Shown: positions 3,533 to 50,143, counted from the stretch's first letter. The stretch is DNA of 64,000 nucleotides from Bacteroidota bacterium (GCA_019637975.1 JAHBUR010000007.1:1-64000); one strand, 5' to 3'. Program-made: numbers and translations. Notes: generated by a model not told the origin, from the letters alone.

Positions 3533-6500
3533 ATGACACTCACTGAATTATCCATCAAACGTCCGACGCTTATCGTCGTCATCTTTGCGGCGCTAACTGT
3601 CGTCGGACTCTTCAGTCTCACCCAGCTCAAGTACGAGTTGCTGCCGAAGATTACACCTCCGTTCGTTGCCATCACGACTGTGTATCCGGGTGCTTCGCCG
3701 AACGAAGTGGAAACCTCCGTCACCAAGCTGATCGAGGACGCCGTCTCCGGCATCGACAAGATTTCGACGGTGTACGGGACATCTACCGAAGGCGCTTCGT
3801 TCGTCTCCATCGAATTCACGATGTCCGCTAATGTCAACATCGCTTTGCAGGATGTTCAGCGCAAAGTCAACGAGGTTGCATCCCGATTGCCTGACGGAGC
3901 CAAGACGCCGATTGTCTCGAAGTTTGCGCTCGACGAGCTTCCCGTTCTTCGCATGGGACTGACCGCCAACATGCCGTCACGCGAGTTCTATCAACTCGTC
4001 AAAGACAAGATTCAGGCGAAGCTGGCAAAGATTGCCGGTGTCGGTCAGATAACGCTTGTCGGCGGAGACGAGCGGGAAATCAAGGTGAACATTGATGCGC
4101 AGAAACTACGTTCGTACGGACTTTCGTTGTTGCAAGTAACGCAAGCAATCAAAACCTCGAATCTCGATTTTCCTACAGGGAAAGTAAAAGAAGGTGGTCA
4201 GCAGTATATTGTCCGCATTGCCGGAAAATTTTCTTCGGTTGATGCATTGCGTGATCTTGTCGTTGCGCAGTCAAAGCAGGGCGGGGACATCAAGCTGTCG
4301 GATATTGCCGAGATTGAAGATGGGCAGAAAGAGTACTCACAAATCAGCCGCATCGACGGCAAGACGTCGATTGGCGTACTCGTGTCGAAGCAATCCGATG
4401 CCAACACTGTTGACGTAAGCGCCCTTGTGCGGAAAGAAATTCCGAACATTGAGGAACTCTACAAAGAACACGGTCTGAAGTTCGATATTGCGCAGGACGG
4501 CTCGACGTTCACGCTCGATGCAGCCAATGCTGTGAAGAAAGATTTGGCGATTGCCGTGATTCTTGTCGCTATTGTGATGCTTGCATTCCTGCACAGCATT
4601 CGCAACTCCGTCATCGTCATGATTGCGATTCCGGCTTCGCTGATCTCGACATTCATTGCAATGTATGCGTTCGGGTTGACGCTGAACCTGATGACGCTGC
4701 TCGGGCTTTCGCTTGTGGTCGGCATTCTCGTTGACGACTCGATTGTGGTGTTGGAGAATATCTACCGCCATCTCGAAAAGGGGGATGAGAAACGTGTTGC
4801 CGCGTTGAAGGGACGAAACGAAATCGGCTTTGCTGCGCTTTCGATTACGCTTGTTGACGTTGTCGTGTTCGTGCCTCTTGCGCTCGTCTCCGGCCTCGTC
4901 GGTAACATCATGCGTGAGTTTGCGCTGACGGTCGTCTTCTCGACGTTGATGAGCTTGTTCGTCTCGTTCACGATTACGCCGCTTCTCGCGTCACGCTTTG
5001 CGAAGCTCGAACATCTCACCAAAAACTCTCTGCTCGGCAAGTTCGGCGTCTGGTTCGAAGCGAAATTCGATGCGATGACCCGTTCGTATCTCCAGATTCT
5101 TAAATGGGGATTGGCAAACCGCGGCAAAGTTGTCGGGATAACAGTTGCGCTGCTGATTGCTTCGTTTGCTCTCGTGCCCCTCGGGTTTATCGGATCGGAG
5201 TTCATTGCCGTGGCAGATCGCGGCGAGTTTGCCGTTACGCTCGAATTGCCTCCCGGTTCAACCGTCGAGAATACCAACTTCATTACGCAGCAGGCCGAGC
5301 GGATGATTTCGGAAATGCCTGAAGTGCGGAAGATGTTCGTCAACGTCGGCGCTTCGAGCGACGGATTCCTTGCACAATCCTCCAACAATATCGCCGAGTT
5401 GACGGTGACGCTTGTGCCGAAGCGCGAGCGCAAGAAATCCACCGACGCTGTTGCCGACGAGATCAAGCAGAAGTTAGCCGAAATCCCCGGCGCGAAAGTC
5501 CGTGCAAATCCCATCGGCATTTTCGGGACGGCAAATCAAACGCCCATTCAGCTTGTGGTCAGCGGCACGTCGTACGAAGACGCGAGGCATGCGGCAGAAC
5601 AGGTGGCCGATGTTGTGCGGAGAATCCCCGGCACCGCCGACGTTCGTCTCTCATCGGAAGAAGGAAAGCCGGAGACACGCGTCGAGATAGATAGGCAGAA
5701 AATGGCCGCTTTTGGCCTGAATTTGGCCGAAGTCGGGCAAACGCTGCGGGTAGCCTTCAACGGCGATGACGATTCGAAATTCCGTGACGGCGACAATGAG
5801 TACGCCATCCGCATCCTGTTCGATCAGTTCGACAGGTCGAAAACTTCGGACATCGGCAGCGTCACGTTCGTGAACCGCAAGGGACAATTGATTGAGCTGA
5901 AGCAGTTCGCCGACATCTACCAGGCAACCGGCCCGACGAAGTTGCAACGCCAGGACCGGAATCCTTCGGTCACCGTGTTGTCACAGGCAGTCGGACGCCC
6001 GAGCGGAAGCATCGGGGAGGATATCAGGGCGGGACTTGCAAAGGTCACGCTGCCGCAGGGCGTCACCATTGCGTACAAAGGAGACCTGCAAAACCAGGCG
6101 GAAGGATTCGCAAGCCTCGGCCTCGCGCTGATTGCCGCTGTGTTGTTCATGTACATGATTATGGTGGCGTTGTATGATTCGTACGTCTATCCGTTCGTCG
6201 TCATGTTCTCGGTTCCGGTGGCGATGATTGGCGCGTTGCTTGCGCTCGCGCTGACGATGAAGTCGCTGAGCATCTTCTCGATACTCGGAGTTATCATGCT
6301 TGTAGGATTGGTCGGCAAGAATGCTATTCTTCTCGTTGACCGCACAAACCAAATGCGCGCAGAGGCGAACCTGAGCACGTTTGATGCGCTGATTGAAGCG
6401 GGGCAGACACGTCTGCGTCCCATCATGATGACGACGGTGGCGATGGTGTTCGGCATGCTGCCGATTGCGATGAGTACCGAAGCGGGCGCCGAGTGGAAGT

Positions 6501-6697
6501 CCGGACTTGCGTGGGCAATCATCGGCGGACTCACCAGCTCGCTGCTGCTGACGCTCGTGCTCGTGCCCGTCGTGTACATGTACGTTGACAGCTTGAAAGA
6601 AAAAATCCCCGCTCTCTTCAGGCGCGTCGCGTGGACGAGCAAGCTCTCGCTGAAGAAACGCATCCCCGATTTGCATCCGCAGTTTCAGCCGGAGTAG
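3533..6697 (+). CDS. RND multidrug efflux permease (AcrB/HAE1-like)
   Basis: 1054 residues, normal for AcrB-type pumps, with 12 membrane segments in two halves and two large periplasmic loops. The proton relay is intact: adjacent Asp401-Asp402 in TM4 (GILVDDSIVVLEN) and Lys929 in TM10 (GLVGKNAILLVD). It uses proton import to drive substrate export through the adaptor and TolC encoded just upstream. The gene is the last of the TetR-led operon and is followed by a strong terminator at 6720. Substrate is not predictable. This intact relay is a useful contrast with the permease at 52785. Confidence 0.95.
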   Translation: MTLTELSIKRPTLIVVIFAALTVVGLFSLTQLKYELLPKITPPFVAITTVYPGASPNEVETSVTKLIEDAVSGIDKISTVYGTSTEGASFVSIEFTMSANVNIALQDVQRKVNEVASRLPDGAKTPIVSKFALDELPVLRMGLTANMPSREFYQLVKDKIQAKLAKIAGVGQITLVGGDEREIKVNIDAQKLRSYGLSLLQVTQAIKTSNLDFPTGKVKEGGQQYIVRIAGKFSSVDALRDLVVAQSKQGGDIKLSDIAEIEDGQKEYSQISRIDGKTSIGVLVSKQSDANTVDVSALVRKEIPNIEELYKEHGLKFDIAQDGSTFTLDAANAVKKDLAIAVILVAIVMLAFLHSIRNSVIVMIAIPASLISTFIAMYAFGLTLNLMTLLGLSLVVGILVDDSIVVLENIYRHLEKGDEKRVAALKGRNEIGFAALSITLVDVVVFVPLALVSGLVGNIMREFALTVVFSTLMSLFVSFTITPLLASRFAKLEHLTKNSLLGKFGVWFEAKFDAMTRSYLQILKWGLANRGKVVGITVALLIASFALVPLGFIGSEFIAVADRGEFAVTLELPPGSTVENTNFITQQAERMISEMPEVRKMFVNVGASSDGFLAQSSNNIAELTVTLVPKRERKKSTDAVADEIKQKLAEIPGAKVRANPIGIFGTANQTPIQLVVSGTSYEDARHAAEQVADVVRRIPGTADVRLSSEEGKPETRVEIDRQKMAAFGLNLAEVGQTLRVAFNGDDDSKFRDGDNEYAIRILFDQFDRSKTSDIGSVTFVNRKGQLIELKQFADIYQATGPTKLQRQDRNPSVTVLSQAVGRPSGSIGEDIRAGLAKVTLPQGVTIAYKGDLQNQAEGFASLGLALIAAVLFMYMIMVALYDSYVYPFVVMFSVPVAMIGALLALALTMKSLSIFSILGVIMLVGLVGKNAILLVDRTNQMRAEANLSTFDALIEAGQTRLRPIMMTTVAMVFGMLPIAMSTEAGAEWKSGLAWAIIGGLTSSLLLTLVLVPVVYMYVDSLKEKIPALFRRVAWTSKLSLKKRIPDLHPQFQPE

Positions 6698-8462: not shown

Positions 8463-8523
8463 TTTCACTCCCATTATCGCGTATATTCGCGTGACTTCTT
8501 TTAGACTAAAAAGCTTCAACCTC

Positions 8524-9216
8524 ATGCAAAAATCAGTTCTCATCGTTGACGACGAAAAAGACATCATTGACATGCTCAAGTACAATCTTGAGAAGGAAGG
8601 GTACAAAGTAGTCAGTGCCCGCGACGGCAGGAAAGCAGTGGAGCAGGCGAAGCAACTGCCCGACCTGATTGTACTTGATGTTATGATGCCGGAGATGGAT
8701 GGTTGGGAGGTGTGCAAGCAGCTCAAACGGGATGCGAAGACGGCGGCAATTCCGGTTCTGTTTCTGACGGCGAAGGGGACGGAGTTCGATGAGGTGCTCG
8801 GTCTCGAGTTGGGTGCCGATGACTACATCGTGAAGCCGGTTGCCGTCCGGACGCTTCTTGCTCGTGTGAAAACGGCTCTGCGCCGCAAGGAGAATGCAGC
8901 GACAGATCTTGCATCTCACGCCAATGAGATTCTCCGAGTGGACAAGCTGGAGATCAATGTCCCCAACTATACTGCCTCGGTCGGTAACAAGGAAATCACA
9001 CTGACGCGGAAGGAGTTCGAGACGCTCGTCTATCTTGCCCGCAACCGCGGCCGCGTGATGACGCGGGAAGTGTTGCTGAATGTTGTGTGGGGGCAGGACG
9101 TGCGGGTCGTTGACCGCACGGTGGATGTGCATATCAGCAAGATCCGCGAGAAACTCGGCGCTTACGGCGACTACATCGAAACGGTGAAGGGTGTCGGCTA
9201 CAGAATGAAAGCGTAA
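8524..9216 (+). CDS. phoB: Phosphate regulon response regulator (OmpR/PhoB family)
   Basis: 230 residues. The receiver domain (about 1-118) has Asp9 and Asp10, phosphoacceptor Asp52 in VLDVMMPEMDGW, a conserved Thr in FLTAKG and Lys in YIVKP. The winged-helix domain (about 130-230) has LTRKEFETLVYLARN and VDRTVDVHISKIREKLG. Start at ATG 8524 is chosen over 8491 because the receiver domain begins at once. The sensor kinase starts 4 bases after the stop. The name PhoB rests on the pst genes downstream and on Pho-box-like repeats at 11447 and 16370. PhoP-like regulators have the same architecture. Confidence 0.88.
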   Translation: MQKSVLIVDDEKDIIDMLKYNLEKEGYKVVSARDGRKAVEQAKQLPDLIVLDVMMPEMDGWEVCKQLKRDAKTAAIPVLFLTAKGTEFDEVLGLELGADDYIVKPVAVRTLLARVKTALRRKENAATDLASHANEILRVDKLEINVPNYTASVGNKEITLTRKEFETLVYLARNRGRVMTREVLLNVVWGQDVRVVDRTVDVHISKIREKLGAYGDYIETVKGVGYRMKA

Positions 9217-16369: not shown

Positions 16370-16408
16370 TTTACAATTTCTTAACACTGGGTTTACATCG
16401 GATTAACC
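16370..16408 (+). promoter_or_regulatory. Pho box: four direct repeats at 11-base spacing
   Basis: TTTACA (16370), TTAACA (16381), TTTACA (16392) and TTAACC (16403) repeat at exactly 11-base intervals. Four repeats of this consensus are the textbook form of a PhoP/PhoB dimer-pair site. It precedes the phosphate-porin remnant and pstSCAB-phoU, so it probably drives the whole operon. Confidence 0.8.
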
Positions 16409-16484
16409 CGATCTGTGTAGATTTGTGCCCGATAGTTGCAAGGGACTATCACTACGGTCATTTACAACTACAAAGGGTCAGACT

Positions 16485-17128
16485 TTGTACTTCACCGCCA
16501 TCCTCCGGGCGGGCGCAATGGTGATGTGTATATCCACGACGGCACCCGCACAACAGGCAGAGCAGGATTCCTCGTTACGTGATGAAGTTGGATATCTCAA
16601 GGCAGTAGTTGAAGGTCTTCAGGAATCGTCAATAGGGTATCAGGGCATCGTCGAGCAGCTGCCGAAGATCGAAATCTCCGGCTATCTGCAGACGCAATTC
16701 CGATGGACTGATGTACATGGAACTTCCTCTCCGTTCTCCGGCGGCAACTATCCGGGGAACAGCAACACACTGATTCAGGTTCGTCGCGGCCGTATCAAAA
16801 TCAACTACGATAACGTTCTTACCCAATTCGTCCCGCAGTTCGACGCCGTTCCGACCGGGTTTTCCATCAAGGATGCATTTCTCTCCGTCACCGATCCGTG
16901 GATGCAATCATTCGGGTTTCAGATGGGTGTTCGACCGTGCGTTCGGGTACGAGATTTCCTTTTCCTTGAACATGCGCGAAGGCACGGGAACGTTCACGCA
17001 TGTTTCAAACACTGTCTCCCGGGCTGCGGACAGACGTCGGCATCTTCAACGGTACCGGGGCACATGCCAATGAGTTCGACAGTTTCAAAGATGTGAGCGG
17101 AAGGGTCGGCGCACGATTCGCATTTTGA
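16485..17128 (+). pseudogene. Decayed OprO/OprP-type phosphate-selective porin
   Basis: From a TTG at 16485 (AAGGG 8 bases upstream) there is a signal-peptide-like start ending APAQQ, a short coiled segment and a porin-like N-terminus (KIEISGYLQTQFRW, RRGRIKINYDN, IKDAFLSVTDPW). Around 16928 the coding jumps frame to VFDRAFGYEISFS, and near 16990 it jumps again to ERSRMFQTLSPG...VGIFNGTGAHANEF...GRVGARFAF followed by a stop. Two frameshifts plus an end at roughly 210 residues, against about 400 for the family, mark it as a pseudogene. It lies right behind the Pho box and before pstS, where a phosphate porin is expected. Confidence 0.8.
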
Positions 17129-17184
17129 AGATATCGGGGGCGCAATAGTTATTGTATTAAAGGACATCATAAGAAGGAGGCAAG

Positions 17185-18009
17185 ATGAAAACTATTCTGA
17201 TGCTCATTGTGGTTTCGTTCCCGGGTTTATCCTTTGTATCGGGAGCCGAGAAAATCACGGTCAAAGGTTCCGACACGATGGTGATTCTCGGGCAACGATG
17301 GGCGGAAATGTATATGCGGGCACACAAAGATGTTATTATTCAAGTAACCGGCGGGGGGTCGGGTACGGGCATCTCAGCGCTGATTAACGGCACCACGGAT
17401 ATCTGTAATTCTTCCCGTCCGATAAAAGAATCCGAGCGGGCGAAGTTGAGCGAGAAGCAAGGTTCACGCGGTGTCGAAATCAAATGCGCGCTCGACGGCC
17501 TTGCCATCTACGTACATGAATCGAACCCTGTAAAAGAGCTCACGCTCGGACAAATCAAAGATATCTATGTGGGCAAAATCAAGAATTGGAAAGAAGTCGG
17601 CGGGCTAGATCAACGTATCATTCTCTATAGCCGCGAGAACAACTCCGGCACATATGTGTATTTCAAAGATGAAGTCCTCGGTGGGATGGACTTCGCGAAG
17701 AATGCACAAAATATGGCCGGAACCGCGGCTGTCGTGAATGCTGTTGCGAAAGACAAAGCAAGCATTGGCTACGGCGGTGCAGCGTACGGCAAGGGGATTC
17801 GTGAGTTGAGTGTGAAGCAGGATGCCACCTCTCCCGCCTACGCTCCGACAATGGAAAACATCCGCACAGGAAAGTACCCGATCAGTCGGTTTCTGTTTAT
17901 GTACACAAAATCCCGCCCGAGCGGAGCATTAAAGAAATATATCGATTGGACGCTGAGCGCAGAAGGTCAGAAGATCGTTGGTGAAGTCGGATATTTCCCC
18001 ATCAGATAA
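17185..18009 (+). CDS. pstS: Phosphate ABC transporter substrate-binding protein
   Basis: 274 residues. AAGGAGG lies 6 bases before the ATG and a signal peptide ends VSGA. The mature N-terminus reads KITVKGSDTMV, and the phosphate-loop motif GGGSGTGISALINGTTDI is clear. Further on, SRENNSGTYVYFKDEVLG is the second ligand-loop region. Secreted to the periplasm, it delivers phosphate to PstCA. It is the first intact gene after the Pho box and the porin remnant. The length is that of the short PstS-type family common in Chlorobi and Bacteroidetes. Confidence 0.95.
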   Translation: MKTILMLIVVSFPGLSFVSGAEKITVKGSDTMVILGQRWAEMYMRAHKDVIIQVTGGGSGTGISALINGTTDICNSSRPIKESERAKLSEKQGSRGVEIKCALDGLAIYVHESNPVKELTLGQIKDIYVGKIKNWKEVGGLDQRIILYSRENNSGTYVYFKDEVLGGMDFAKNAQNMAGTAAVVNAVAKDKASIGYGGAAYGKGIRELSVKQDATSPAYAPTMENIRTGKYPISRFLFMYTKSRPSGALKKYIDWTLSAEGQKIVGEVGYFPIR

Positions 18010-20848: not shown

Positions 20849-21574
20849 ATGAACACAACACGAGGCATTCCGGAAAGGGAATTGATGCACAGACATTTCG
20901 AATACGAACTTGACGGACTGAAATCCAACATCATCAAAATTGCCAGTCTCGCCGAGCAGTCGATTGCCCAGTCCATCAAGTCGTTGCTCGAACAGAAGAA
21001 GGAGATTGCACGGCAGGTTATCGAATTCGACAAACAGATCGATGCCTACGAGATCGTCATCGACAATCACGTCGTGGATATTCTTGCGTTGCAGCAGCCT
21101 GTTGCCGTTGACTTGCGGTTTATTCTGGCGGCGTCAAAGATCAACAACGACCTGGAACGGATCGGCGACCACGCCGTCAACATCGCGCAGTCAGCCATTG
21201 TTCTTGCCGATGCCCCGTATATCAAACCCCTCGTGGATATTCCCGTCATGGCGGACACAACAAAGCAAATGCTGCGGGATGCGATCGACGCGTTTATCCA
21301 CCGGGATGCACAGAAGGCCCGCCGTGTTCTTGAGAACGATGATATGATCGACAATCTGAACAAGAAGATTGTCAACGATCTGGTTGTGCTGATGCGCAAG
21401 GATCAATCCACAATCGATCAGGCGCTGGATCTCATCCGGGTCAGCCGCAATCTGGAACGCGTGGCCGATCTCACGACCAACATAGCCGAGCAGGTGATTT
21501 TTATGGCGGAGGCGAGGGTGGTGAAACATCAGGGCGGTCACGAACAAACGCCCGGGGAAGAACCTACGCAGTAA
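20849..21574 (+). CDS. phoU: Phosphate signalling protein PhoU
   Basis: 241 residues: two three-helix bundles with the repeated PhoU motifs (DKQIDAYEIVIDNHVVDIL, ISRNLERVADL-type), metal-binding EIxxD patterns, and MAEARVVKHQ near the end. It links PstB transport activity to inhibition of the PhoR kinase. AAGGGG precedes the ATG and pstB ends 8 bases before. The last 290 bases recur at 28976-29189 as a degraded copy, so the gene's 3' end marks a rearrangement joint. Confidence 0.95.
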   Translation: MNTTRGIPERELMHRHFEYELDGLKSNIIKIASLAEQSIAQSIKSLLEQKKEIARQVIEFDKQIDAYEIVIDNHVVDILALQQPVAVDLRFILAASKINNDLERIGDHAVNIAQSAIVLADAPYIKPLVDIPVMADTTKQMLRDAIDAFIHRDAQKARRVLENDDMIDNLNKKIVNDLVVLMRKDQSTIDQALDLIRVSRNLERVADLTTNIAEQVIFMAEARVVKHQGGHEQTPGEEPTQ

Positions 21575-21591
21575 ATCCCAACACGACATCC
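21298..21591 (+). repeat. Left copy of a direct repeat (phoU 3' end and downstream)
   Basis: This stretch, from ACCGGGATGCACAG to ACATCC beyond the phoU stop, recurs at 28976-29189. By eye there are about 9 differences in the last 160 aligned bases; the right copy lacks about 85 internal bases. The bases after the phoU stop, read on the minus strand, would encode DVVLGFTA-stop, matching the end DVVLGLTS-stop of the desaturase at 29162. This copy therefore also carries a relic of that gene's end. Confidence 0.85.
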
Positions 21592-21628
21592 AAGGTTTGT
21601 GTCTTTGCTGAAAAAAAACTAAGAGCTA

Positions 21629-22609
21629 CTACACTTCAGTAAGATACAAATCAACCACTTTGCGAGACGGGATGACTCCCTTCATCAGCAAGAGGGAATA
21701 TCCGAGAACAATCCAACAGGCATCCCTCAATCGTTTTGTCAGGATGAACAGCGCCATGCTTGCCGGTGAGGCAGCAACCCCCAATGCCATGAGAATGCCG
21801 GCATACCCTGCCTCTTGAACTCCAATTCCTGCAGGAAGAAAGAACGCTCCGAGTCGAAGAGCAGAGACAAGAGCTTCAAGTGCAAGTGCGTCCTGAAAGC
21901 TGACGTTCAGGCTGATTGCGTGCAGGAGAATATATGTCTCCAGAAACTCCATCCACCAAGACGCGAAGTAATAAGAAGAAGAGCCGAGAAGGTGTCTGTG
22001 TCCTGCAGTCCGGATGGTCAAGAGACTCCTGTCGATAGTGACAAAGTCTTCTTTCTGCAGATTTACGAACTCGCTTACGTTCTTGATTGGAATACGTTTA
22101 AGGAGGTTGTGAAAACGGCTTGCGATTCCGGTGCCCCCGGCCAGGACCAAGATGCCCCACAGAATAACTCCCGCAGTTGAAACCGCAGCGATGAGAAGCC
22201 ACCCAAGCGCAGTATTGTGGAGAAAATGACTTGAGACCACGGAAACAGATCCGAAGGCGGCACCTACCCCAAGCAGCACGTATATGCATTGGCTGAATCC
22301 CAGAGACCAGCGGCGGACAATAGTGCCCACAAGACTCTCACGTGCAGGTATTCCCTTTTCTTTCTTCAAGAGAAATAGCCTCAGCGAATCAGCAAACGGA
22401 ACGCCGAAAGGAATGGACCTGGCGATTGCCTCTGATGAAATGTGGATGTTCAGGAGGGAGGTAAACGAAACAGTGCGCCTGTCGGTTGCCAGCATTGTGC
22501 GCCATCCGAGAACGTCCAGCACATGAAGCAAAACACCCGGAGCGAAAACGAACGGCAGGGTACATCCCAGAACAGTTATAAGGCGCCACAATTCGGTGAA
22601 GTCGATCAT
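21629..22609 (-). CDS. UPF0104/LPG-synthase-type membrane flippase domain protein
   Basis: 326 residues of mostly hydrophobic sequence with about 7-8 membrane segments. It resembles the lysylphosphatidylglycerol synthase N-terminal transmembrane domain: ARSIPFGVPFADSLRLFLLKKEKG in the first third and ALRLGAFFLPAGIGVQEAGY in the last third, the conserved Gly/Glu pattern of that family. No catalytic aminoacyl domain follows. Such stand-alone proteins are thought to move lipids or lipid-linked sugars across the membrane. It is last of a four-gene minus-strand cluster with a TPR protein, a phosphoesterase and a GT4 glycosyltransferase, which suggests export of a glycolipid. Confidence 0.78.
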   Translation of the reverse strand: MIDFTELWRLITVLGCTLPFVFAPGVLLHVLDVLGWRTMLATDRRTVSFTSLLNIHISSEAIARSIPFGVPFADSLRLFLLKKEKGIPARESLVGTIVRRWSLGFSQCIYVLLGVGAAFGSVSVVSSHFLHNTALGWLLIAAVSTAGVILWGILVLAGGTGIASRFHNLLKRIPIKNVSEFVNLQKEDFVTIDRSLLTIRTAGHRHLLGSSSYYFASWWMEFLETYILLHAISLNVSFQDALALEALVSALRLGAFFLPAGIGVQEAGYAGILMALGVAASPASMALFILTKRLRDACWIVLGYSLLLMKGVIPSRKVVDLYLTEV

Positions 22610-22618
22610 GACACCGCG

Positions 22619-23344
22619 TCAATCAGAAAGTCGGCTCACGATGTTTCGCATCTCAACGATGCGTGTACTGTCACTGCGTAGTGCTACTGCTACCTGCAAA
22701 GCGCTCAACAATTCGGCCTTTGCTTCCGCTGTGTGGCCCCAGTCGTGGTACACCATGCCAAGCTCGTACCGGTGGCGCATGACATCCGGCGCAAGGGCGA
22801 TTGCCTTGTTCAATGCTTCTACGGCCTCTCGATATCCGCCATCAGGCAATCCTCCGAGAAAAATGTTGGCAAGCTGGCGCTCGATCCAACTTACTCCGCC
22901 CAACGCACGATAGAATGAGCCGAGTATCGAGTATGCAATGTCATCATTCGGATTGAGCTCGATTGCACGTTGTGCTTCTCTATAAATTTCCCGCGCAAGC
23001 TTCACTTTCGTCGTACCGCCTTCATACATGGCAATATTTCCCAAAGCGGCTGCAAGCCACGTATGCCCATCGGCAATCTGTTCGTTCTGCTCGATACATG
23101 CTCTTGCATGCTGTTCAGCCTTTCGGTATAAGCGTTCGCGCCCGGAATCCGGCGATACGTCGGCAATGCTGATGGTAAGACGGGCAAGCCTCCACAAGAT
23201 CTCAGGTCGCGCAGGTGCCGCTGTCAGGGCAAGAACGTACAAGGACTCGGCTTCAGCGTACCGCATCCTCTTGTATTCCGTATCTCCGGCTGCAAGATAC
23301 GCCTCAACCGGAACCAGCATGAGTATAGCCAGCAAGGAAAGCAT
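22619..23344 (-). CDS. TPR-repeat periplasmic protein
   Basis: 241 residues from the ATG at 23344, which begins a signal peptide (LSLLAILMLVPVEAYLAAG). Helical repeat pairs follow, including DGHTWLAAALGNIAMYEGG, NPNDDIAYSILGSFYRALGG and APDVMRHRYELGMVYHDWG, typical of TPR proteins and of the regulator-of-microtubule-dynamics-like repeat group. An upstream in-frame start would add about 39 residues without a signal. It is located between the flippase (9 bases on) and the phosphoesterase. A scaffold role is inferred. Confidence 0.7.
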   Translation of the reverse strand: MLSLLAILMLVPVEAYLAAGDTEYKRMRYAEAESLYVLALTAAPARPEILWRLARLTISIADVSPDSGRERLYRKAEQHARACIEQNEQIADGHTWLAAALGNIAMYEGGTTKVKLAREIYREAQRAIELNPNDDIAYSILGSFYRALGGVSWIERQLANIFLGGLPDGGYREAVEALNKAIALAPDVMRHRYELGMVYHDWGHTAEAKAELLSALQVAVALRSDSTRIVEMRNIVSRLSD

Positions 23345-23390
23345 ACGATTGGTCGACTCAGGAATTGAGAAAGGAGAAAGATGAATGCAT

Positions 23391-24338
23391 CTACGCAGCT
23401 TCCGGAATGACCAGTTGATTTGCGGGGCGTAGCAATGGCTCGGTTGGTTGGGTTGCGGCAAATTGGGGCAGTTTTCTCAACGTCGTTTGAACTCCGGCGG
23501 GACTCACACGAATGAACGCAACATGAAAGGTGCTGTTGTCACCGAGTATGGAGCCGCCGGCGTTCAGGAAGCGAATTCCCTTTCTCATATACTCGTGGTT
23601 GCAGTGCACGTGCCCGTGCAGCACCAGGTCAACGCTCGATGCGGCAAACAGTTGCAGCAAGCGCTTCTTACCCCTGAGTTTCATTGTCTGGCGCTCCACA
23701 GCGTTCCAAACAGAGTGTGCTCTCCCTGCACCATTCGAGAGTATTTTGTTGAAGTGGTGATGTATGAGCACAAGTTTCCGTTTTTCCTTCAGGTGTTCGG
23801 CCATGAGAGTCTTTCTCAAGCGCTCAAACTGTTTGTCATCAACCTCGCCGTTGGAGCCGATCGGGTTCTTCACGCGCGAGTACCGTGCTATGGAATGCAC
23901 TCCAATGATTGCGACGCCGTCAAAAACCTTCACGAAAGGAGACGAGATGTCGGGACTGCTTTGTTCCGATGAATCAAAGACTTCATGAAAGTGCTCACGG
24001 AATTCTCTCATCTTCCGATCGTAGTTCGTCGTCTTGCAGCGTTTGGGGAATGAGAGGATTTCCTCGGCACGATGAACACCACCGTACACATCGTGGTTTC
24101 CGCAAAGAAGGGAAAGTTTCCGGGCGTCAAGCAGCCCGTAGTTTCTGAAGATCTTGCGGGTTGCCTCAAATTCCTTCTTCTCGCCGTTTGCCGTGATATC
24201 GCCTGTGATGACAACATGATCAGCCCCTTGTCGCAGGCAATACTCGATAAGCGAGCGGGTTTTCCTGATATTATGTCTCGAGTGGTCGAGACTAATGTGC
24301 AGATCCGAAAGATGGGCGATAGTAAACGGACGCTCCAT
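23391..24338 (-). CDS. Calcineurin-like metallophosphoesterase
   Basis: 315 residues from the ATG at 24338 (AAGGGGAG about 9 bases upstream). The metal-binding motifs are in order: HLSDLHIS, VITGDIT, CGNHDVY, LIHHHF and HGHVH. No signal peptide, so probably cytoplasmic or membrane-associated. It overlaps the end of the GT4 gene by 47 bases, so the two are co-translated. In phosphate-starved proteobacteria, a PlcP phospholipase of this superfamily works with a glycosyltransferase to swap phospholipids for glycolipids. The same pairing next to phoU makes that role attractive here. A CpdA-like nucleotide phosphodiesterase is the alternative. Confidence 0.85.
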   Translation of the reverse strand: MERPFTIAHLSDLHISLDHSRHNIRKTRSLIEYCLRQGADHVVITGDITANGEKKEFEATRKIFRNYGLLDARKLSLLCGNHDVYGGVHRAEEILSFPKRCKTTNYDRKMREFREHFHEVFDSSEQSSPDISSPFVKVFDGVAIIGVHSIARYSRVKNPIGSNGEVDDKQFERLRKTLMAEHLKEKRKLVLIHHHFNKILSNGAGRAHSVWNAVERQTMKLRGKKRLLQLFAASSVDLVLHGHVHCNHEYMRKGIRFLNAGGSILGDNSTFHVAFIRVSPAGVQTTLRKLPQFAATQPTEPLLRPANQLVIPEAA

Positions 24339-25500
24339 GTCCGCGTCTCCCCTTGCGTTCTTGAAATGATGAGAATTCATGCAGTACGTTGTGATAGCTT
24401 GTAAACATTCTGTTGAAAATGTGTTCCCACTGTTGCTGTTGAGCGAAAGCGAACGCTTGTTTGCTGACGCTCTCCCGCAGTCCGCGGTTATCGAGCAGCA
24501 ATTCGATGTTGCGTACAAGGTCGGTCGGGCATCGGGGCTTGGCCAGAAGTCCTGTCGCGCCTTCACGGATAATCCCGAACGCGCCCCCCTCCCGGGCACA
24601 GATAGGCGGCAGACCTGATGCCATCGCTTCGAGCGTAACGTTTCCGAAAGTCTCCGTTGTGGATGGAAACACGAACAGATCACTCGACGCATAGGCAACA
24701 GCCAAATCCCGTTTTGACTCGTGGCCGAGGAATATTGTTTCCGGCATTAGTCGTTTCAATTCTTCACGCACGGGCCCGTCTCCGGCTACCACAAAGACGG
24801 CATCATTTCTCTTCGCGGTAAGAATTTTGTACGCTTCGGCAAGCGTTTTCAAATCTTTCTCCCAGACAAGACGTCCAGCGAACAGAAGAACATGCTTTCC
24901 TTCTGCTCCAATTGTCGGTTTCCATGCCGGATCCTTCAGTCTGGGATTGAATGTCTCTGTATCGACACCATGGGGCAGGAACTCAAGTGTGCGTAGCCCG
25001 TGTGTGTAGAGCTCATCAAGAATCGGCTGCGACGGTACAAACACTCTCTGGCACCTGTTGTACAGCCGTCTGATATATGCCCAGCTCAATCCCTCAAGTG
25101 CCGTGATGTTGTAGTATTTCGCGTAGCTTGCGAAGTGAGTGTGATACGTTGCAACCACTGGAATGTTGTGCTGTTCACCAAACTTCACGGCTGCATAACC
25201 GAGGGAGCATGGACTATTGATGTGGAGAATGTCAGGCCGGAAGGCCCGCAATTCCTGCTCAAAATGTCGCGTGCCCGGTATTGCAAAACGGTAATCTTTG
25301 TACAATGGAAATGTCACGGAAGGCACGCGGTGGAACAGAGTGCCGTAGTCCGATGACGGGACAATGGGAGAGAAAAAGATGTGGCGAATATCGTTGGTAT
25401 TCAAGTAGCTGACGAGTCGATACAGCACACGGGTCACCCCGTCGTGTTCGGGGCGCATGGTGCCTGCGAAGTATGCGACGCGGATCGGGCGCCGAATCAA
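24292..25500 (-). CDS. GT4-family glycosyltransferase (mannosyl/lipid-glycosyl transferase-like)
   Basis: 402 residues. The N-terminal acceptor domain has RVAYFAGTMRPEHDGVTRV and IPVVATYHTHF. The C-terminal donor domain has LFAGRLVWEKDLKTLAEAY, VVAGDGP, and the family motif SSTTETFGNVTLEAMASGLP with the E-x7-E pair. The sequence resembles the MgtA/PimB/SqdX group that glycosylates lipids. TTG at 25500 is the only plausible start, because the first beta strand begins six residues later. It is first of a minus-strand cluster and is divergent from the glycosidase at 25775. Glycolipid synthesis under phosphate stress is inferred from neighbours. Confidence 0.88.
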   Translation of the reverse strand: MIRRPIRVAYFAGTMRPEHDGVTRVLYRLVSYLNTNDIRHIFFSPIVPSSDYGTLFHRVPSVTFPLYKDYRFAIPGTRHFEQELRAFRPDILHINSPCSLGYAAVKFGEQHNIPVVATYHTHFASYAKYYNITALEGLSWAYIRRLYNRCQRVFVPSQPILDELYTHGLRTLEFLPHGVDTETFNPRLKDPAWKPTIGAEGKHVLLFAGRLVWEKDLKTLAEAYKILTAKRNDAVFVVAGDGPVREELKRLMPETIFLGHESKRDLAVAYASSDLFVFPSTTETFGNVTLEAMASGLPPICAREGGAFGIIREGATGLLAKPRCPTDLVRNIELLLDNRGLRESVSKQAFAFAQQQQWEHIFNRMFTSYHNVLHEFSSFQERKGRRGHGASVYYRPSFGSAH

Positions 25501-25660
25501 TGCGCAACTCGCTGACGTCCGACAAAGAATTGCAGCGTAAGAACCACCGCGCTGATAAAGAAGAATGCTACCGATTTCACTTGTTTTTTCCTTTCAGAGT
25601 GCATTGTCATTTCTCTGGCTTCAGACGGTGATAAGATACCAACGCAATGTGATGTGTATG

Positions 25661-25688
25661 TTAGCATCTTGTAAACTGTCGGTTAAAT
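25661..25688 (+). promoter_or_regulatory. Weak Pho-box-like triplet between divergent genes
   Basis: TTAGCA (25661), TAAACT (25672) and TTAAAT (25683) keep the exact 11-base spacing of the Pho box at 16370, with poorer hexamer matches (5/6, 4/6, 4/6 to TTAACA). It lies in the 270-base gap between the glycosyltransferase and glycosidase genes. No other element is seen in that gap. Confidence 0.3.
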
Positions 25689-25774
25689 CTCTTCTCGCAA
25701 GTTGTTTATCGTTCGACTTCTCAGGATATTCGTGCCGAACAACAACTACATATTACTCAATCCGGAAGGCACGC

Positions 25775-28111
25775 TTGAGATTAATCGAAACCGGCGCAGC
25801 GTGGGTTGCGCGTATGCTGAATGTCCCCACGTTGGCCATTACGATGTTTAAGAAAGCAAATGAAGTAAGCGGCATCGATAAGGACACGCTGCCTACCGAG
25901 CTCATTCCCCTGAATACGATTCAGTTGTCACGCGGCCTTCTGAATTTCACCCTACTGCAGAGTATCCGAAACTGGGTCTTCCCTTACTGGGCGCATCAAC
26001 AGTATGATCCCTCCTCTCCGGCGTTCATTCCCCGTTCCCATCTCGGTCTCTCCATGAATCTGACGCATCGAAACTGGACGGCAGTGGGAAGCCCGGACTG
26101 TGATGTTGAGCCGATTGTTGACCCGCGTGGAATGGTAACACCATTCCGTGATGGTTGGTCGCTGGACGTATGGCTGTTGTATGATGGCAAACTCTACTGC
26201 CCCTCGCAGCAGCGTAACGTTCGTCAACGACTCGTAAATGATGTCCCTATCGTTGAAACGACAATTGAATCCGGCGACCTTGTTCTGGTTCTGACAACGT
26301 TTGTTGTCAAAACGGAGATGGTTCACCGGGCAGAGGTAAGGAACAACTCCACGACGCCGAAACATTTCAGGCTCTTCTTTGCCGTTCGACCATTTAACCC
26401 TGAGGGCATAGGTCTTGTTCATGATGTTCAGTTCGTTACACGTGACAACTGCTTCCTGGTAAACAACAGCGCCAAAGTTCATTTTGCCGAAGAACCTGTT
26501 CGTATTGCATGCTCTGGTTACGAGGGAGGGGATTGTGCAGGTTTTGTCGCCAATGCTGGGGTGAGCGACCGGCAAGAGGCGCATTGCACGGTTGGTCTGG
26601 GGAACGCGGCCGCTGGATTCGAGGGGGACCTCATTCCGCGCGCATCAAAATCCGTTGACGCGATCTGTTCTCTGCAATCGCCTTCGGTTCGATGGGACAA
26701 GAGTCTTTCTGATGATCCGGGAAACGTGTGGGCGAGCGCGTTGGAGAAGGGCTGTCTGTTTTCAACTCCCGATCAGCGTATCAATGCGCTCCTCACATCG
26801 TCTCTATCAACACTTCTCTTGTTTGTTGACAGGCACTCCATTACGCCGGGGCCATTCACGTATCATCAGTTCTGGTTTCGCGATACCGCATACATGCTCT
26901 GGGCGCTGGAGAAATTCGGGTTCAAGCAGCACATCGCAGACGTCATGCAGGGTTTTCGGGACAAACAACAGCGGTCAGGATACTTCCGATCTCAACAAGG
27001 CGAGTGGGACTCAAACGGCCAAGTGTTGTGGCTTGCATGGCAACACCTGCGCTACACGGGCGACACCGCGTTGGTGCAGGAGCAGTTGGAATCCTTGCGA
27101 CGCGGGGCAAGGTGGATCGAGAAGAAGCGTTTGATGGGAAGCATGACTGAGCCCTACTATGGCTTGTTGCCAAGAGGCATGAGCGCCGAACATCTCGGCC
27201 TGGCCGACTATTATTTCTGGGACAACTTCTGGTCGCTTGCTGGCCTTGAGTCGTATGCCGGGATATGCGATCACCTTGGTCTGTCCGGGGAGTCGGCACG
27301 CACATGCGATGTGCTGCATCAGTATCGCAGAGATGTTGAAAGGGCGATCCGAATTTCCCGGGAGAAATCCTCAACACAAGCAATAACAGCCGGCCCTTTT
27401 CGCAACATTGATTGCGGTATGATCGGATCTGTGTGTGCGTGGTATCCTCTTCAGTTGTTCAAGCCGGATGATGCCGGACTGGGTGAGACTCTTGAAGCAT
27501 TGCATAAGAGGTTTTTCAGAAACGGCATGTTCTTCCAGGATTTCATTCACAGCGGCATGAATGCCTACCTCACCCTTCAAGTGGCGCATGCATGGCTGTA
27601 CGGTGGCAACCGGAAGAGATTTTGGGAGATATTTTCCACTGTGTGCTCATTCGCCTCACCCACGATGAATTTTCCGGAAGCTATACATCCTGTCACGCTT
27701 GGCGGCTGTATGGGAGATGGGCATCATGGTTGGGCTGCGGCCGAAATTGCCCTGGCATTGCGGGATGCTTTTCTCTACGAACAAGAAACACCCAACGGTT
27801 CACATCTGATCCTTCTTGCCGGGGTGCCTGGCTCCTGGTTTTCATCCGGCAAGGAGTTTTTCGCAGAGAAGGCGTGTGTTCATGGCGGCGTTGTTGGTAT
27901 ACGCGTGCGCTGTTCGGCATCAATGATAGAGATACAGGTAGTGTTCGAACGAATCAATACATTTGCCCCCCAACGGATGTCTATGCGTCTGCCCGTTGCG
28001 GTGAGAAGTGTTTCTGTCGATGGTGAGTCATTCGTACGGTATCAATGCAAGGGGGATGAAACACACATTGAATTGGACGCACGATCAGTTGTTGTGCGAG
28101 TGTTTCAGTGA
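25775..28111 (+). CDS. Large (alpha/alpha)6-barrel glycosidase-like protein
   Basis: About 778 residues from TTG 25775 (GGAAGG 5 bases upstream). The open frame continues upstream to 25565 but that part looks non-coding; ATG 25814 is another option. The N-terminal half is beta-rich (WTAVGSPDCDVEPIVDPRG). The C-terminal half has helical-barrel motifs (HQFWFRDTAYMLWALEKFG, GEWDSNGQVLWLAWQHL, GDGHHGWAAAEIALALRDA) as in glycogen-debranching C-domains, GH15 and GH63. No signal peptide. It probably hydrolyses or rearranges a cytoplasmic glucan or glycan; the exact family is uncertain. It is divergent from the glycolipid-type cluster and inside the same phoU-bracketed block. Confidence 0.72.
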   Translation: MRLIETGAAWVARMLNVPTLAITMFKKANEVSGIDKDTLPTELIPLNTIQLSRGLLNFTLLQSIRNWVFPYWAHQQYDPSSPAFIPRSHLGLSMNLTHRNWTAVGSPDCDVEPIVDPRGMVTPFRDGWSLDVWLLYDGKLYCPSQQRNVRQRLVNDVPIVETTIESGDLVLVLTTFVVKTEMVHRAEVRNNSTTPKHFRLFFAVRPFNPEGIGLVHDVQFVTRDNCFLVNNSAKVHFAEEPVRIACSGYEGGDCAGFVANAGVSDRQEAHCTVGLGNAAAGFEGDLIPRASKSVDAICSLQSPSVRWDKSLSDDPGNVWASALEKGCLFSTPDQRINALLTSSLSTLLLFVDRHSITPGPFTYHQFWFRDTAYMLWALEKFGFKQHIADVMQGFRDKQQRSGYFRSQQGEWDSNGQVLWLAWQHLRYTGDTALVQEQLESLRRGARWIEKKRLMGSMTEPYYGLLPRGMSAEHLGLADYYFWDNFWSLAGLESYAGICDHLGLSGESARTCDVLHQYRRDVERAIRISREKSSTQAITAGPFRNIDCGMIGSVCAWYPLQLFKPDDAGLGETLEALHKRFFRNGMFFQDFIHSGMNAYLTLQVAHAWLYGGNRKRFWEIFSTVCSFASPTMNFPEAIHPVTLGGCMGDGHHGWAAAEIALALRDAFLYEQETPNGSHLILLAGVPGSWFSSGKEFFAEKACVHGGVVGIRVRCSASMIEIQVVFERINTFAPQRMSMRLPVAVRSVSVDGESFVRYQCKGDETHIELDARSVVVRVFQ

Positions 28112-28220
28112 TGGCAGAAATGGAATAATGTGAGGATGAAAACCGGACTGGAATTTGCACTTGAGTTGGCGGAATGCGCTACACGAGAAATTCTTCCGCG
28201 ATTGAGAGGCAGGAATCGGA

Positions 28221-28385
28221 TCAAGCGCCGGATTCCGGTTTCCGCTGCTGCATTTCCTTCAAGAGCGAAATCAGTTCCGCAACAGACGCAAATCGCAGAC
28301 CCTTGATGCGAGCCCATACGATCTTTTCATCGGCATCCAATTCCTGCGCAATCAGAATTGCATCCTCATAAACTGCTTCGCGCAT
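28221..28385 (-). CDS. Small hypothetical protein
   Basis: 54 residues from an ATG at 28385 preceded by GGAAGGA at 7-base spacing. The product is helical and charged (AILIAQELDADEKIVWARIKG). No family is recognised and no partner gene is obvious. The ribosome site and sensible composition are the only support. Confidence 0.4.
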   Translation of the reverse strand: MREAVYEDAILIAQELDADEKIVWARIKGLRFASVAELISLLKEMQQRKPESGA

Positions 28386-28434
28386 ACGTTGATCCTTCCC
28401 GTTGTGCATGATTATTCTTGTTCACAGAACGGCT

Positions 28435-28668
28435 TCATTCATACATCACATCCAAACCATCAGCATTGTTGTAAAAGGATGATCGTGACGATCTTTTGGG
28501 CTGTTGCACAGGAGGAATATGTCCCAACGAAAGGCGTATGTCATACTCGGCGCTGCATTTGCGATTGAGACATTTCACGAAGAAGAGATTTCTGATGGGC
28601 TGGGAGAGAATTCGAATCCGTCCCTTGTTGCACACTTTGCATGCTTTCATGTAGTCAATCCAAGCCAT
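28435..28668 (-). CDS. Small zinc-ribbon-like protein
   Basis: 77 residues. CKVC near residue 10 and CLNRKC about 24 residues later (CxxC...CxxxxC) form a plausible one-zinc ribbon. The tail is basic and Ser-rich. No good ribosome site is seen. The plus strand across the same bases has an ATG at 28519 with a perfect AGGAGG, so either strand may be the real one; the Cys pattern favours this strand. The rest of 28112-28975 shows no convincing gene. Confidence 0.35.
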   Translation of the reverse strand: MAWIDYMKACKVCNKGRIRILSQPIRNLFFVKCLNRKCSAEYDIRLSLGHIPPVQQPKRSSRSSFYNNADGLDVMYE

Positions 28669-28975
28669 GAGTTTGGGATTCGAGTCGAGATGCGTACGCT
28701 AATCGGGCGAGTGTTGCACAACTCCTCATACACAATATAGGCTGACGTTGTAACGTAATTGTTGCCTGAAGTTTAAGAGTCTTTTAAGACGTCACTCCGG
28801 CCTGGGGGGAATATTCTGAATCGTGGGAAATCACTTCGTTTCGGCCTTAGGAAGGTTGTGAAATAGCCGACGATCGAGGGACATCTCATGGTGCTTGCTT
28901 TGCGGCCGTTATTCTCTGCACATCCAAGAAGTTTCTATCAGGCCATTCCTTTGTCTTACCCCGACAGATGGAGAT

Positions 28976-29189
28976 CACCGGGATGCACAGGAGGCCCGCC
29001 GTAATCCACAATCGATCAGGCGCCGGATCTCATCCGGGTCAGCCGCAATCTTGAACGCATGGCCGACCTCACGACCAACATAGCCGAGCAGGTGATTTTT
29101 ATGGCGGAGGCAAGGGTGGTGAAACATCAGGGCGTTCACGAACAAACGCCCGGGGAAGAATCTACGAGGTCAATCCTAACACAACATCC
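28976..29189 (+). pseudogene. phoU: Truncated, degenerate second copy of the phoU 3' end
   Basis: It aligns with 21298-21591: ACCGGGATGCACAG...GCCCGCCGT, then a loss of about 85 bases, then near-identity from CAATCGATCAGGCGC through the phoU stop region. The deletion shifts the frame and the original stop codon is altered, so it cannot make PhoU. Its last bases overlap the 3' end of the desaturase at 29162. It is the right-hand joint of the 21600-28970 block. Confidence 0.88.
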
Positions 29190-30298
29190 CTGTCGAAAAT
29201 CCAGCTGAATTTTTCCTTCCCGGAAAAACTCACACGGTTAGCTAAATTCGCGTAGCGTTCCGAAAGGTTGCAGAGATAATCCTGCGCCTTCGCCGCAACA
29301 TCCGAGAGTCCCTGAATCGTCTCCAGTCTCCAATGTTCCACCAGATCCTCGATGATGTCCGAGTAATCCTTCACGGTGTACACGCCGGTTTTCTGCGCGA
29401 CAATCGAATACTTCTCGAACAGATTCTTGTCCCTGCCGTCGTACATGAGCACGGCGGGCATGGTGATTTTTGTTTTCATCATCTTCGCAAACGAGAGTAC
29501 CGCCTGCGCAGGGTCCAGGTCGAACACCTTGCTCATGAACAGCTTGTACGCCTTTTCGTGCCGTGCCTCGTCGCCCGCAATCAGGCCGCAGATTTTGTGG
29601 AGCATATCCTCGCCCGCTTTTTTTGCAAGCACGCCCACGTTGCGGTGCGAGATTTTCGTCGCTCGTTCCTGAAATGACGTATAGATGAATCCGAGATACG
29701 GATCGTCGCCCGTTTGCGGGTCGAAGCCGTTGTTGATGAGGTGATGGACTGTTGTTTCGACGGCCCGCATATCCACGCGGCCGGAGAGGTAGAGGTACTT
29801 GTTGAGCAAGTCGCCGTGGCGGTTTTCCTCCGCCGTCCAGCCGCGGCCCCACTGTGCCCACGGCGTGTCGCTTGCGCCGGTCGGGTCTTTCACGCCCTGC
29901 AGCCGGTTGATCCACGACTGGTAGGTGGGGAGCGCCTCCTCCGTTACCATATCGCCCACTAATACCACCAACAGTTCATCCGGCAGCACAGACGCTCGCG
30001 ACCGGAACTCGGCGAGTTGCGTGTGCCAGTCCTCCTGCGTAATGTCGGGTAGAAAATCGCTGGGCTGCCAGCTCTCCTCCACGGGTACGAGTAGTTCGGA
30101 GAGATGCTGCTTGACAAATCCCTCCATGCTTTTGATCACTTCAAACCGGGAAGAGGTTACGGGGATATCATTGTCAGACGCCACAAATCGCTCCATTCGA
30201 GTGGAATATTCAAAGAACTGTGACACAATATGACGCAATTCGGGGTGAATAACAAGGAGGGGGGAGTCAGAGTCACATGTCCTAGTCATGCAAACCAT
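29162..30298 (-). CDS. Acyl-ACP desaturase (ferritin-like di-iron)
   Basis: Up to 378 residues; homologous sequence clearly begins near residue 50 (FEVIKSMEGFVKQHLSELLVPVEESWQPSDFLPD), so ATG 30196 (344 residues) is a possible start. The two iron-binding motifs are EENRHG and DEARHEKAYK, as in plant-type stearoyl-ACP desaturases. It introduces a double bond into saturated acyl-ACP using O2 and ferredoxin, so the host meets oxygen. It is convergent with phoU relics: its last 8 codons lie in the duplicated repeat, meaning the two genes were neighbours before the 7.4 kb block appeared. Confidence 0.9.
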   Translation of the reverse strand: MVCMTRTCDSDSPLLVIHPELRHIVSQFFEYSTRMERFVASDNDIPVTSSRFEVIKSMEGFVKQHLSELLVPVEESWQPSDFLPDITQEDWHTQLAEFRSRASVLPDELLVVLVGDMVTEEALPTYQSWINRLQGVKDPTGASDTPWAQWGRGWTAEENRHGDLLNKYLYLSGRVDMRAVETTVHHLINNGFDPQTGDDPYLGFIYTSFQERATKISHRNVGVLAKKAGEDMLHKICGLIAGDEARHEKAYKLFMSKVFDLDPAQAVLSFAKMMKTKITMPAVLMYDGRDKNLFEKYSIVAQKTGVYTVKDYSDIIEDLVEHWRLETIQGLSDVAAKAQDYLCNLSERYANLANRVSFSGKEKFSWIFDRDVVLGLTS

Positions 30299-45446: not shown

Positions 45447-45584
45447 GTACTATCTCCTGCTGATTCCGCGGCTGTGGGGGAACCCATCCTCTTGCTTCTT
45501 GTTACCAATTACTATCAGCTCAGAAACAACTCAGAGTTGAAGAATCACTTTTTCGTTTCTTCCCATAGCTCTTTTGGCTTGCTC

Positions 45585-45662
45585 ATGTCCCTCAGCCCCC
45601 TCTCCACATCCCGCCCCGTTACCGTGCCGTTCGTTTTCTCCACGTCCCCGCCGAAGTATTGA
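45585..45662 (+). pseudogene. Fragment of an RND permease start (joint 1)
   Basis: 25 codons reading MSLSPLSTSRPVTV then a diverged tail and stop. The first 14 residues and the preceding ~40 bases match the start of the RND permease at 52785 and the fragment at 49600. It marks the left edge of the duplicated cassette region. The rest of 45447-45729 holds no gene. Confidence 0.75.
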
Positions 45663-45729
45663 CATTCTCCGCCCGGATGCGTTTCTTGTCGGCATCCTGA
45701 TTCCCTTCTCTTCATTTGGTTGAGGGCCT

Positions 45730-46956
45730 ATGCCGCGACGACGAACACTCCTTCTGTGGACTTTCAGCATTCCCCTGATTGGACTCATTGCGTATCTCGC
45801 CACACGATCAGCAGATACATCTCCTCCCGAACGCGCCAACGCGGTGAGTGAAGTTGATGGCGATGTCCGGTTTCCCGTCACGGTTGCTGTAGCGGAGCGG
45901 GGAGTGCTTGCAAAGAGCATTGGCGCCAATGGCATACTGCGCGCACGGCGCGAGGTGGAATTGCTTGCGCGTGTTGGCGGTGATGTTGTTGGCGTGTATG
46001 CACAGAACGGCAAGCACGTCGGCAAAGGTGATCTGTTAGTGAAGTTGGATGATCGCGAGTCCCGTCTTGCGTATGAGAAGGCCTCGACAGCGCTGCTTGC
46101 CGCGCAGATTGAGTACCGGGCACTCAGCACGTCCGAGTTTCTTGCCGGACCCGATTCGGCGCGTGTGCAGGAGGAGCTTACCCGCGTGCGTCAGCGGCTT
46201 GCGGATGCGGAGAGCGCCTACCGGACAAAGAAGATAGACGAGGCTGCACTGGCGCGAGCACGGCGCGAATACGAAGCCGCGAACGCCTATCTGCTCGTTG
46301 ACCGCGGCGACATTATTGCCAACAAAAGCGGACTCGCGGCGACGCAGGAAGCCTACACCCGCGCAAAGTTGGATTTGGAGGCAACCGAACTCCGTGCCCC
46401 GTTTGCAGGTTACGTCGGCAATCTCGACCTCACCGTTGGCAAGCGCGTACAGGCGGGGACAGCAATCTGCAATGTCGTTGACCTCTCGACTCTGCTTGTG
46501 GATGTTGATGTGATTGAGAGCGAAGCGCCGCGTGTGCAGCCGGGACAACGCGCCGAGCTGACCGTTGCCGCGCTGCCGGGCAAAACCTTCACGGGCAAAG
46601 TCATAACCCGCAACCCGATGATTGATCCCAAAACCAAAACTCTTAAAGTAACGATTGAACTGACCAACCTTCCCACCTCCAACTCGCTGATGCCGGGGAT
46701 GTACGCAACAGTGAGAATCCAAACCGAAATCTTTGCCAGCCGACTGCTTGTACCGAAGGCTGCGCTGCTTGTGCGCGACCAGCGCACGCTCGTGTTTGTG
46801 GCACAGCAAGGACTTGCCAAGTGGCACTACGTTGATGTTGAAGATGAGAATGAACGCTACATTGCCATCCGCTCAGGTATCGAGACGGGCGACACGGTGA
46901 TTGTGGACGGACACTACACACTGGCGCATGATGCAAGGATACGCGTAACAAAATAG
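45730..46956 (+). CDS. RND efflux periplasmic adaptor (second system)
   Basis: 408 residues. N-terminal anchor (about 8-25), lipoyl halves (NGILRARREVELLARVGGDV and ELRAPFAGYVGNLDLTVGKRV), a hairpin with Arg/Ala-rich helices, and barrel plus membrane-proximal domains to the C-terminus. GAGGG lies upstream. The permeases that should work with it start 5.8 kb downstream (52785 and 56111), separated by the two cassettes. A shortened copy of this gene is at 49794. No TolC gene is in this operon. Confidence 0.92.
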   Translation: MPRRRTLLLWTFSIPLIGLIAYLATRSADTSPPERANAVSEVDGDVRFPVTVAVAERGVLAKSIGANGILRARREVELLARVGGDVVGVYAQNGKHVGKGDLLVKLDDRESRLAYEKASTALLAAQIEYRALSTSEFLAGPDSARVQEELTRVRQRLADAESAYRTKKIDEAALARARREYEAANAYLLVDRGDIIANKSGLAATQEAYTRAKLDLEATELRAPFAGYVGNLDLTVGKRVQAGTAICNVVDLSTLLVDVDVIESEAPRVQPGQRAELTVAALPGKTFTGKVITRNPMIDPKTKTLKVTIELTNLPTSNSLMPGMYATVRIQTEIFASRLLVPKAALLVRDQRTLVFVAQQGLAKWHYVDVEDENERYIAIRSGIETGDTVIVDGHYTLAHDARIRVTK

Positions 46957-46973
46957 ACCTTGAAACATTAAGT

Positions 46974-47010
46974 CCCCTCTGCGGGAGGGTATGTGCGCGA
47001 GGGAGAGGGG
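46974..47010. repeat. Dispersed-type palindrome (CCCCTCT...AGAGGGG)
   Basis: CCCCTCT and AGAGGGG flank a GC-rich core, followed by AACGCAGTGAGGACGGGGTG. This kind of intergenic element is common in many genomes. Nothing else is seen between the adaptor and the HTH gene. Confidence 0.5.
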
Positions 47011-47115
47011 TGTCCGAACGCAGTGAGGACGGGGTGTGAAAAAGACAACGACTCCGATAACCACGGTCGACATATTTCAAACACTTTTCTTGTCCCTAAC
47101 TTGGAGGTATATCCC

Positions 47116-47535: not shown

Positions 47536-47609
47536 CGATCAGATAGGGAGACACTGTATTCATCTCCGAATTCACATTATCCACTTCTTCAAAAAACGTT
47601 GGAGGCATC

Positions 47610-48934: not shown

Positions 48935-48944
48935 AGTTCAAGGC

Positions 48945-49489: not shown

Positions 49490-49599
49490 CAGTTGACCCC
49501 CGCGCTGTCGAGCAGCCACTTTTTACTTTGCATCCGCAATCCATCAAGTGATATTCACCCCCCTTTTTCGTTTCTTCCCGTATCATCCTTGGCTTGTTC

Positions 49600-50126: not shown

Positions 50127-50143
50127 TCTGAAATAATTCCCAC

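Follow-up and report, generated by a model that had tools for sequence, protein, structure and literature searches.

A phoU-linked gene block in a Bacteroidota genome, bracketed by copies of its target joint, is a likely relocated cassette with a predicted Pho box

Why should the 3' end of a phosphate regulator gene stand on both sides of a block of other genes? In the window (the whole 64,000-nucleotide stretch of Bacteroidota DNA analyzed here), phoU is followed by genes for a flippase, a TPR protein, a phosphoesterase and a GT4 glycosyltransferase, in this order and divergent from a glycosidase gene, and then by a desaturase gene (Table 1). The first-pass annotation had proposed that phoU and the desaturase gene were once convergent neighbors and that the block came between them with duplication of the joint. 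We consider it likely that the block is a relocated cassette that entered the phoU/desaturase joint additively, with a relative as the likely donor and PhoB as its probable regulator.

The duplicated joint and its counterparts in sister genomes

The block is indeed bracketed by direct repeats of the phoU 3' end, which are 94% identical. They align in two colinear pieces, one of 187 nt (21405-21591/29003-29189, 94% identity, spacing of 7598) and one of 27 nt (21299-21325/28976-29002, 96% identity, spacing of 7677). Because these spacings differ, the right copy must have lost 79 bases; the loss noted earlier is therefore real, but its size, put at about 85 bases, was an overestimate. The block proper comprises 7384 bp (21592-28975). 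Between the copies, 13 of the 214 aligned bases differ (8/186 outside the desaturase tail and 5/28 inside it), and most differences affect the first or second position of phoU codons, a pattern expected of a right copy that is no longer read as phoU. The next-best direct repeats within 18-33 kb measure 20 to 30 nt at 70 to 90% identity, and the phoU 3' end matches only two places in the entire 4.25-Mb genome, namely, the left and the right copy, which rules out a chance repeat. The desaturase open reading frame ends inside the right copy, while the left copy still encodes the last eight residues of this protein on the minus strand (complement of 21564-21591, DVVLGFTA-stop versus DVVLGLTS-stop), both as first described.

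Table 1. Features of the block, its flanks and the porin promoter, in window coordinates
Feature	Position	Strand	Evidence
Four-unit predicted Pho box upstream of Pho-locus porin	16370..16407	+	motif as in block
phoU, 241 aa, intact; 3' end is the left repeat	20849..21574	+	PF01895 E 7e-47; 91% identical to G001 phoU
Left copy of duplicated joint: phoU 3' end plus last 28 bases of ancestral desaturase end	21299..21591	+	
44 bp without match in G001, candidate filler or old flippase spacer	21592..21635	.	G001 match begins at query base 45
Flippase-like membrane protein (LPG_synthase_TM / HpnL-like)	21629..22609	-	PF03706 E 1e-22; 84% to G001 C12
TPR protein	22619..23344	-	TPR families; 88% to G001 C12
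Calcineurin-like metallophosphoesterase (MPE)	23391..24362	-	PF00149 E 3e-15; 90% to G001 C12
GT4 glycosyltransferase	24292..25500	-	PF00534/PF13439; 92% to G001 C12
Predicted Pho box, divergent GT4/GH promoter	25649..25686	-	TTAAC-N6-TTTAC-N6-CTAAC
GH15-like glycoside hydrolase (GH; distant)	25772..28111	+	TIGR01577 E 5e-10, below cutoff; 87% to G001 C12
31-codon stub of HisN/inositol-monophosphatase-type gene	28115..28207	+	intact gene in G001 C12
Fossil of cytochrome c upstream region, ending at about the expected cytochrome start codon	28780..28975	.	
Right copy of duplicated joint: phoU remnant lacking 79 bp after 29002, living desaturase end	28976..29189	+	
Acyl-ACP desaturase-type gene	29162..30298	-	PF03405 E 4e-141; phoU neighbor in G001 and G002

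The genus comparison covered three genomes, the window genome and its sisters G001 and G002, whose contigs were matched, along with more distant relatives, in a contig search with the desaturase. The predefined check for the proposed former neighborhood was positive: in G001, phoU (C14:85984-86667) and the desaturase gene (C14:87034-88125) are convergent, about 340 bp apart and free of the block, the order being pstS-pstC-pstA-pstB-phoU and then directly the desaturase gene. This contig is publicly available as CAADGV010000014.1, from an uncultured Chlorobi bacterium. In G002 (C59), a single NAD-epimerase-like gene separates phoU from the desaturase gene, and block DNA is absent from that whole genome. 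The situation in which all relatives carry the block at this joint was thus not seen. The phoU end is single copy at the orthologous target in both sisters, and these two block-free joints support the proposal that the block came between phoU and the desaturase gene with the joint duplicated.

Several further observations concern the Pho locus itself. In G001 the spacer between phoU and the desaturase gene (L036 8695-9000) is a repeat-like sequence with GGGGTGAAA.. motifs on both strands and has no similarity to the block. The dS of phoU to its G001 counterpart is 1.40 versus 0.44 to 0.80 for its operon neighbors, and identity drops from near 20900, as if one lineage had received a foreign phoU allele. 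The Pho-locus porin gene (16425-17185) is shorter than its 480-aa homologue in G001, and the first pstS copy of G001 is missing in the window genome, where about 1.6 kb appears deleted. Elsewhere in the window (45548-52874), direct repeats of 80 to 300 nt, spaced by about 3.15 to 3.2 kb and 83 to 89% identical, suggest a tandemly duplicated gene unit of about 3 kb.

A former address beside a cytochrome c gene

The whole block is present in G001 on another contig, C12, at 88% DNA identity, where it lies between a multiheme cytochrome c gene and a FecCD permease/obg pair. The matches to C12 cover 21636-28106 (88%), 28123-28203 (85%) and 28209-28925 (83%), and the last two of these flank the place in the HisN-like stub where about 1.04 kb has been lost. 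At the corresponding site of the window genome (C17), no block separates the cytochrome gene (23628-24977) from FecCD (25168-26178), the two lying about 190 bp apart. The block is single copy in the window genome as well as in G001.

The last ∼190 bp of the block, up to the start of the phoU repeat, align with the region upstream of the cytochrome gene. The Smith-Waterman score of this fossil was 127 against G001 C12 and 50 against the window genome's own C17, compared with maxima of 31 (C12) and 30 (C17) in 500 shuffles each. It follows from this alignment that the block once stood directly upstream of the cytochrome gene. No phoU-like sequence was found in 34 kb of G001 C12, and the cassette sits there without flanking repeats of the phoU type. 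At the flippase stop in G001 we also observed a MITE-like element of about 183 bp (L050 16550-16732) with terminal inverted repeats TGATGTTACGCAAA; among the other loci searched, only the overlapping L052 contains it.

Base composition, compared as the first-pass annotation had proposed, does not set the block apart (51.4% GC versus 50.97 to 56.4% in 7.4-kb windows). A foreign composition was thus rejected as a mark of the block; an indistinct GC content is what would be expected if it stems from a close relative or from the same lineage. Neither plasmids nor PDB contained a match to the MPE sequence, the GH had a negligible sequence match in PDB and no Pfam match, the plasmid relatives of GT4 among the matches listed were all 30 to 36% identical and stood in unrelated contexts, and an Rfam search of 20.5-31.5 kb returned no match.

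Origin and mode of entry

Whether the cassette was imported or moved within the genome can be judged from the fossil and from synonymous divergence. A copying of the genome's own cassette from the C17 site to phoU, followed by deletion of the original, would explain why C17 is empty exactly where G001 carries the block and why the block is single copy, and the divergence of the block from G001 lies inside the genomic range. If the cassette had been copied from its own C17 at the time the phoU repeats arose, however, an identity of about 94% between fossil and C17 would be expected, matching that of the two repeats. Only 66 of 113 sites (58%) agree, for which P is about 1e-7 even if the true divergence were 20%; the fossil is also closer to G001 (68%). 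The dS values of the block genes to G001 (0.33 to 0.44) are slightly below those of 18 background genes (0.31 to 1.40, median of about 0.59), a small difference (Mann-Whitney P of 0.015). Together, the divergence of the fossil from C17 and the slightly low block dS favor import from a relative, and the donor was most likely a related genome or another lineage of the genus rather than the own C17 site; polarity and donor are both read from one sister in this genus of three genomes. The within-genome hop would be rescued if gene conversion had given the phoU repeats too young an appearance, or if a foreign allele had taken the place of the original C17 sequence. We consider import appreciably the more credible of the two and the hop unlikely, if still a serious competitor.

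Other modes of entry account for the repeats less well. A circle carrying the cassette and a phoU/desaturase segment could have integrated by a single, Campbell-type crossover, which yields direct repeats of the length of the homology and keeps both genes, and such a circle model has been proposed for transposed genes in plants (PMC2869330). Since the G001 C12 block has no adjacent phoU-like sequence, the circle would first have had to acquire phoU, and we find this route doubtful, a little more so than the hop. A site-specific integrative element using the phoU 3' end as its attachment site would regenerate that end on entry, and the direct repeats do resemble attL and attR, but at 293 bp, and with the tail of the neighboring gene included, the repeat greatly exceeds the length of a core site, no recombinase is found among the identified genes and no tRNA lies nearby, and G001 has the same cassette without such repeats; we give this reading very little credence. 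An assembly artefact or chimeric contig might be suspected in a draft of 68 contigs. The copies, however, differ by 6% and by the 79-bp deletion and are no simple assembly duplication, and the right copy leaves the reading frame of the desaturase unbroken. Together with the coherent history told by the fossil end and the empty C17 site, this makes an artefact highly improbable. More generally, the five assigned block genes include no recombinase, transposase or integrase, no tRNA was found near the block and no strong pair of inverted repeats at its ends; together with the lack of phoU homology in the G001 copy, this argues against an integrase, a transposon or a simple Campbell event. A transposon or IS composite was rejected for want of a terminal inverted repeat pair and a transposase.

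Under the preferred reading, an imported and additively inserted cassette, the former home would have been the site between the cytochrome c gene and the FecCD permease, as still seen in G001. Insertion in the window lineage would have copied 293 bp of the target onto both sides, so that both neighbors stayed intact. The right copy would have lost its 79 bp later, and the block would have lost most of the HisN-like gene. The joining likely proceeded by break repair or template switching: replication would leave phoU just past the desaturase stop, copy the cassette and re-enter 293 bp upstream. Such a one-step event with a 293-bp re-entry would explain the long target duplication. As a bacterial case, the relocation is well resolved but mechanistically ordinary.

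The closest described pattern is that of transposed genes in Arabidopsis (Woodhouse et al. 2010, PMC2869330). Direct repeats of about 30 to 290 bp, mostly genic, flank these genes and correspond to the orthologous target of A. lyrata; at the parent site they are sometimes lacking. In both systems, nontransposon genes have been relocated between sister species and are flanked by repeats that correspond to an orthologous empty target, the repeat being single copy at the sister's empty site and the insert residing elsewhere in the sister (here, G001 C12). In contrast to the circle model, the repeat sequence is not found at the parent site (in 34 kb of C12). The present case also differs from Arabidopsis: it concerns a bacterium and a multigene cassette whose donor was probably another species, and one end retains a fossil of the former neighbor's promoter. 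Bacterial homology-facilitated illegitimate recombination (e.g., PMC3240628) resembles our case in the additive entry of nonmobile chromosomal DNA without an integrase. It uses homology at one end, whereas the G001 block copy has no phoU homology, both joints look illegitimate here and the target is duplicated.

Predicted phosphate control and distribution of the cassette

The divergent GT4/GH promoter is highly conserved between the window genome and G001 and holds the motif TTAAC-N6-TTTAC-N6-CTAAC. Scanning for this exact pattern, which was derived from the promoter itself, returned two loci each in the whole window genome and the whole G001 genome, the cassette and the porin gene upstream of pst, and one occurrence in the whole of G002, upstream of the porin homologue. 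In three further genomes, the motif also stands upstream of pst-proximal genes that resemble those for outer membrane proteins. A TWAC array with an 11-base period and 0 or 1 mismatches was present in all nine cassette promoters examined, compared with 0 to 3 of 200 composition shuffles per promoter; since the relaxed pattern was set after several promoters had been seen, the nine-promoter result describes these promoters and is no blind test, and the exact whole-genome scan is the stronger evidence. A scan for E. coli-type Pho boxes gave nothing convincing. The window encodes a PhoB-like regulator at 8491-9216, whose best NCBIfam match is the Bacteroidetes PhoB (252 bits, against a cutoff of 270). 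Because the motif is common to the cassette promoter and the Pho-locus porin promoter, we predict that the cassette is probably PhoB controlled and switched on when phosphate runs out.

Judged from its gene content, the cassette may act in membrane or glycan remodeling during phosphate starvation. The MPE start overlaps the GT4 3' end, the MPE-GT4 pair is conserved in nine cassettes, and the best NCBIfam match of GT4 is GlcNAc-phosphatidylglycerol synthase (NF053787, E 8e-54, below cutoff). In PlcP-Agt lipid remodeling, a phosphoesterase and a glycosyltransferase acting under phosphate starvation likewise share an operon for which a Pho box is predicted (ISME J 2015, PMC4796936). Given the overlap of the MPE gene with one whose best relative is a lipid glycosyltransferase, and the flippase-like protein beside them, the cassette could plausibly be a glycolipid/phospholipid remodeling set that works like PlcP-Agt. 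This likeness is one of gene arrangement. The MPE is placed by its PF00149 superfamily match, and any substrate assigned to it would be a sequence-based prediction. Three genes of the cassette, those for the flippase, the TPR protein and the GH15-like enzyme, have no place in PlcP-Agt.

The MPE-GT4|GH core occurs in about half of 21 family genomes. Its neighbors are pst-phoU in G004; genes for M48, TonB and secreted proteins matching window positions 10.6-16 kb in G013, with the desaturase gene 13 kb further on; and a TolC-MFP-RND system that adjoins the cassette in G008 and G018 and lies about 9 kb away in G015. Within genus g7 (loci L071, L077 and L072), where this efflux system is beside the cassette or about 9 kb from it, the RND protein is 70 to 73% identical to the one at window positions 3533-6697. 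Since these varied neighbors are all pieces of the window's Pho neighborhood, the cassette has probably been associated with this neighborhood for a long time and has probably moved around it more than once; its linkage to the Pho region may predate the phoU insertion. A broader proposal, that a nonmobile, Pho-regulated cassette has been repeatedly exchanged in the family and re-inserted beside Pho-locus genes, in a recurrent, possibly selected, integrase-free additive return that duplicates long stretches of target, is tentative, and we think it rather improbable.

The locus preserves an unusually complete record of a relocation, with a filled and an empty target, a filled and an empty donor-type site, the target duplication and a promoter fossil. 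It shows that a multigene cassette can come to lie behind a regulatory gene with no mobile element involved and with both neighbors unharmed. For the family, it provides a testable predicted Pho box and points to an uncharacterized cassette that may serve in phosphate starvation.
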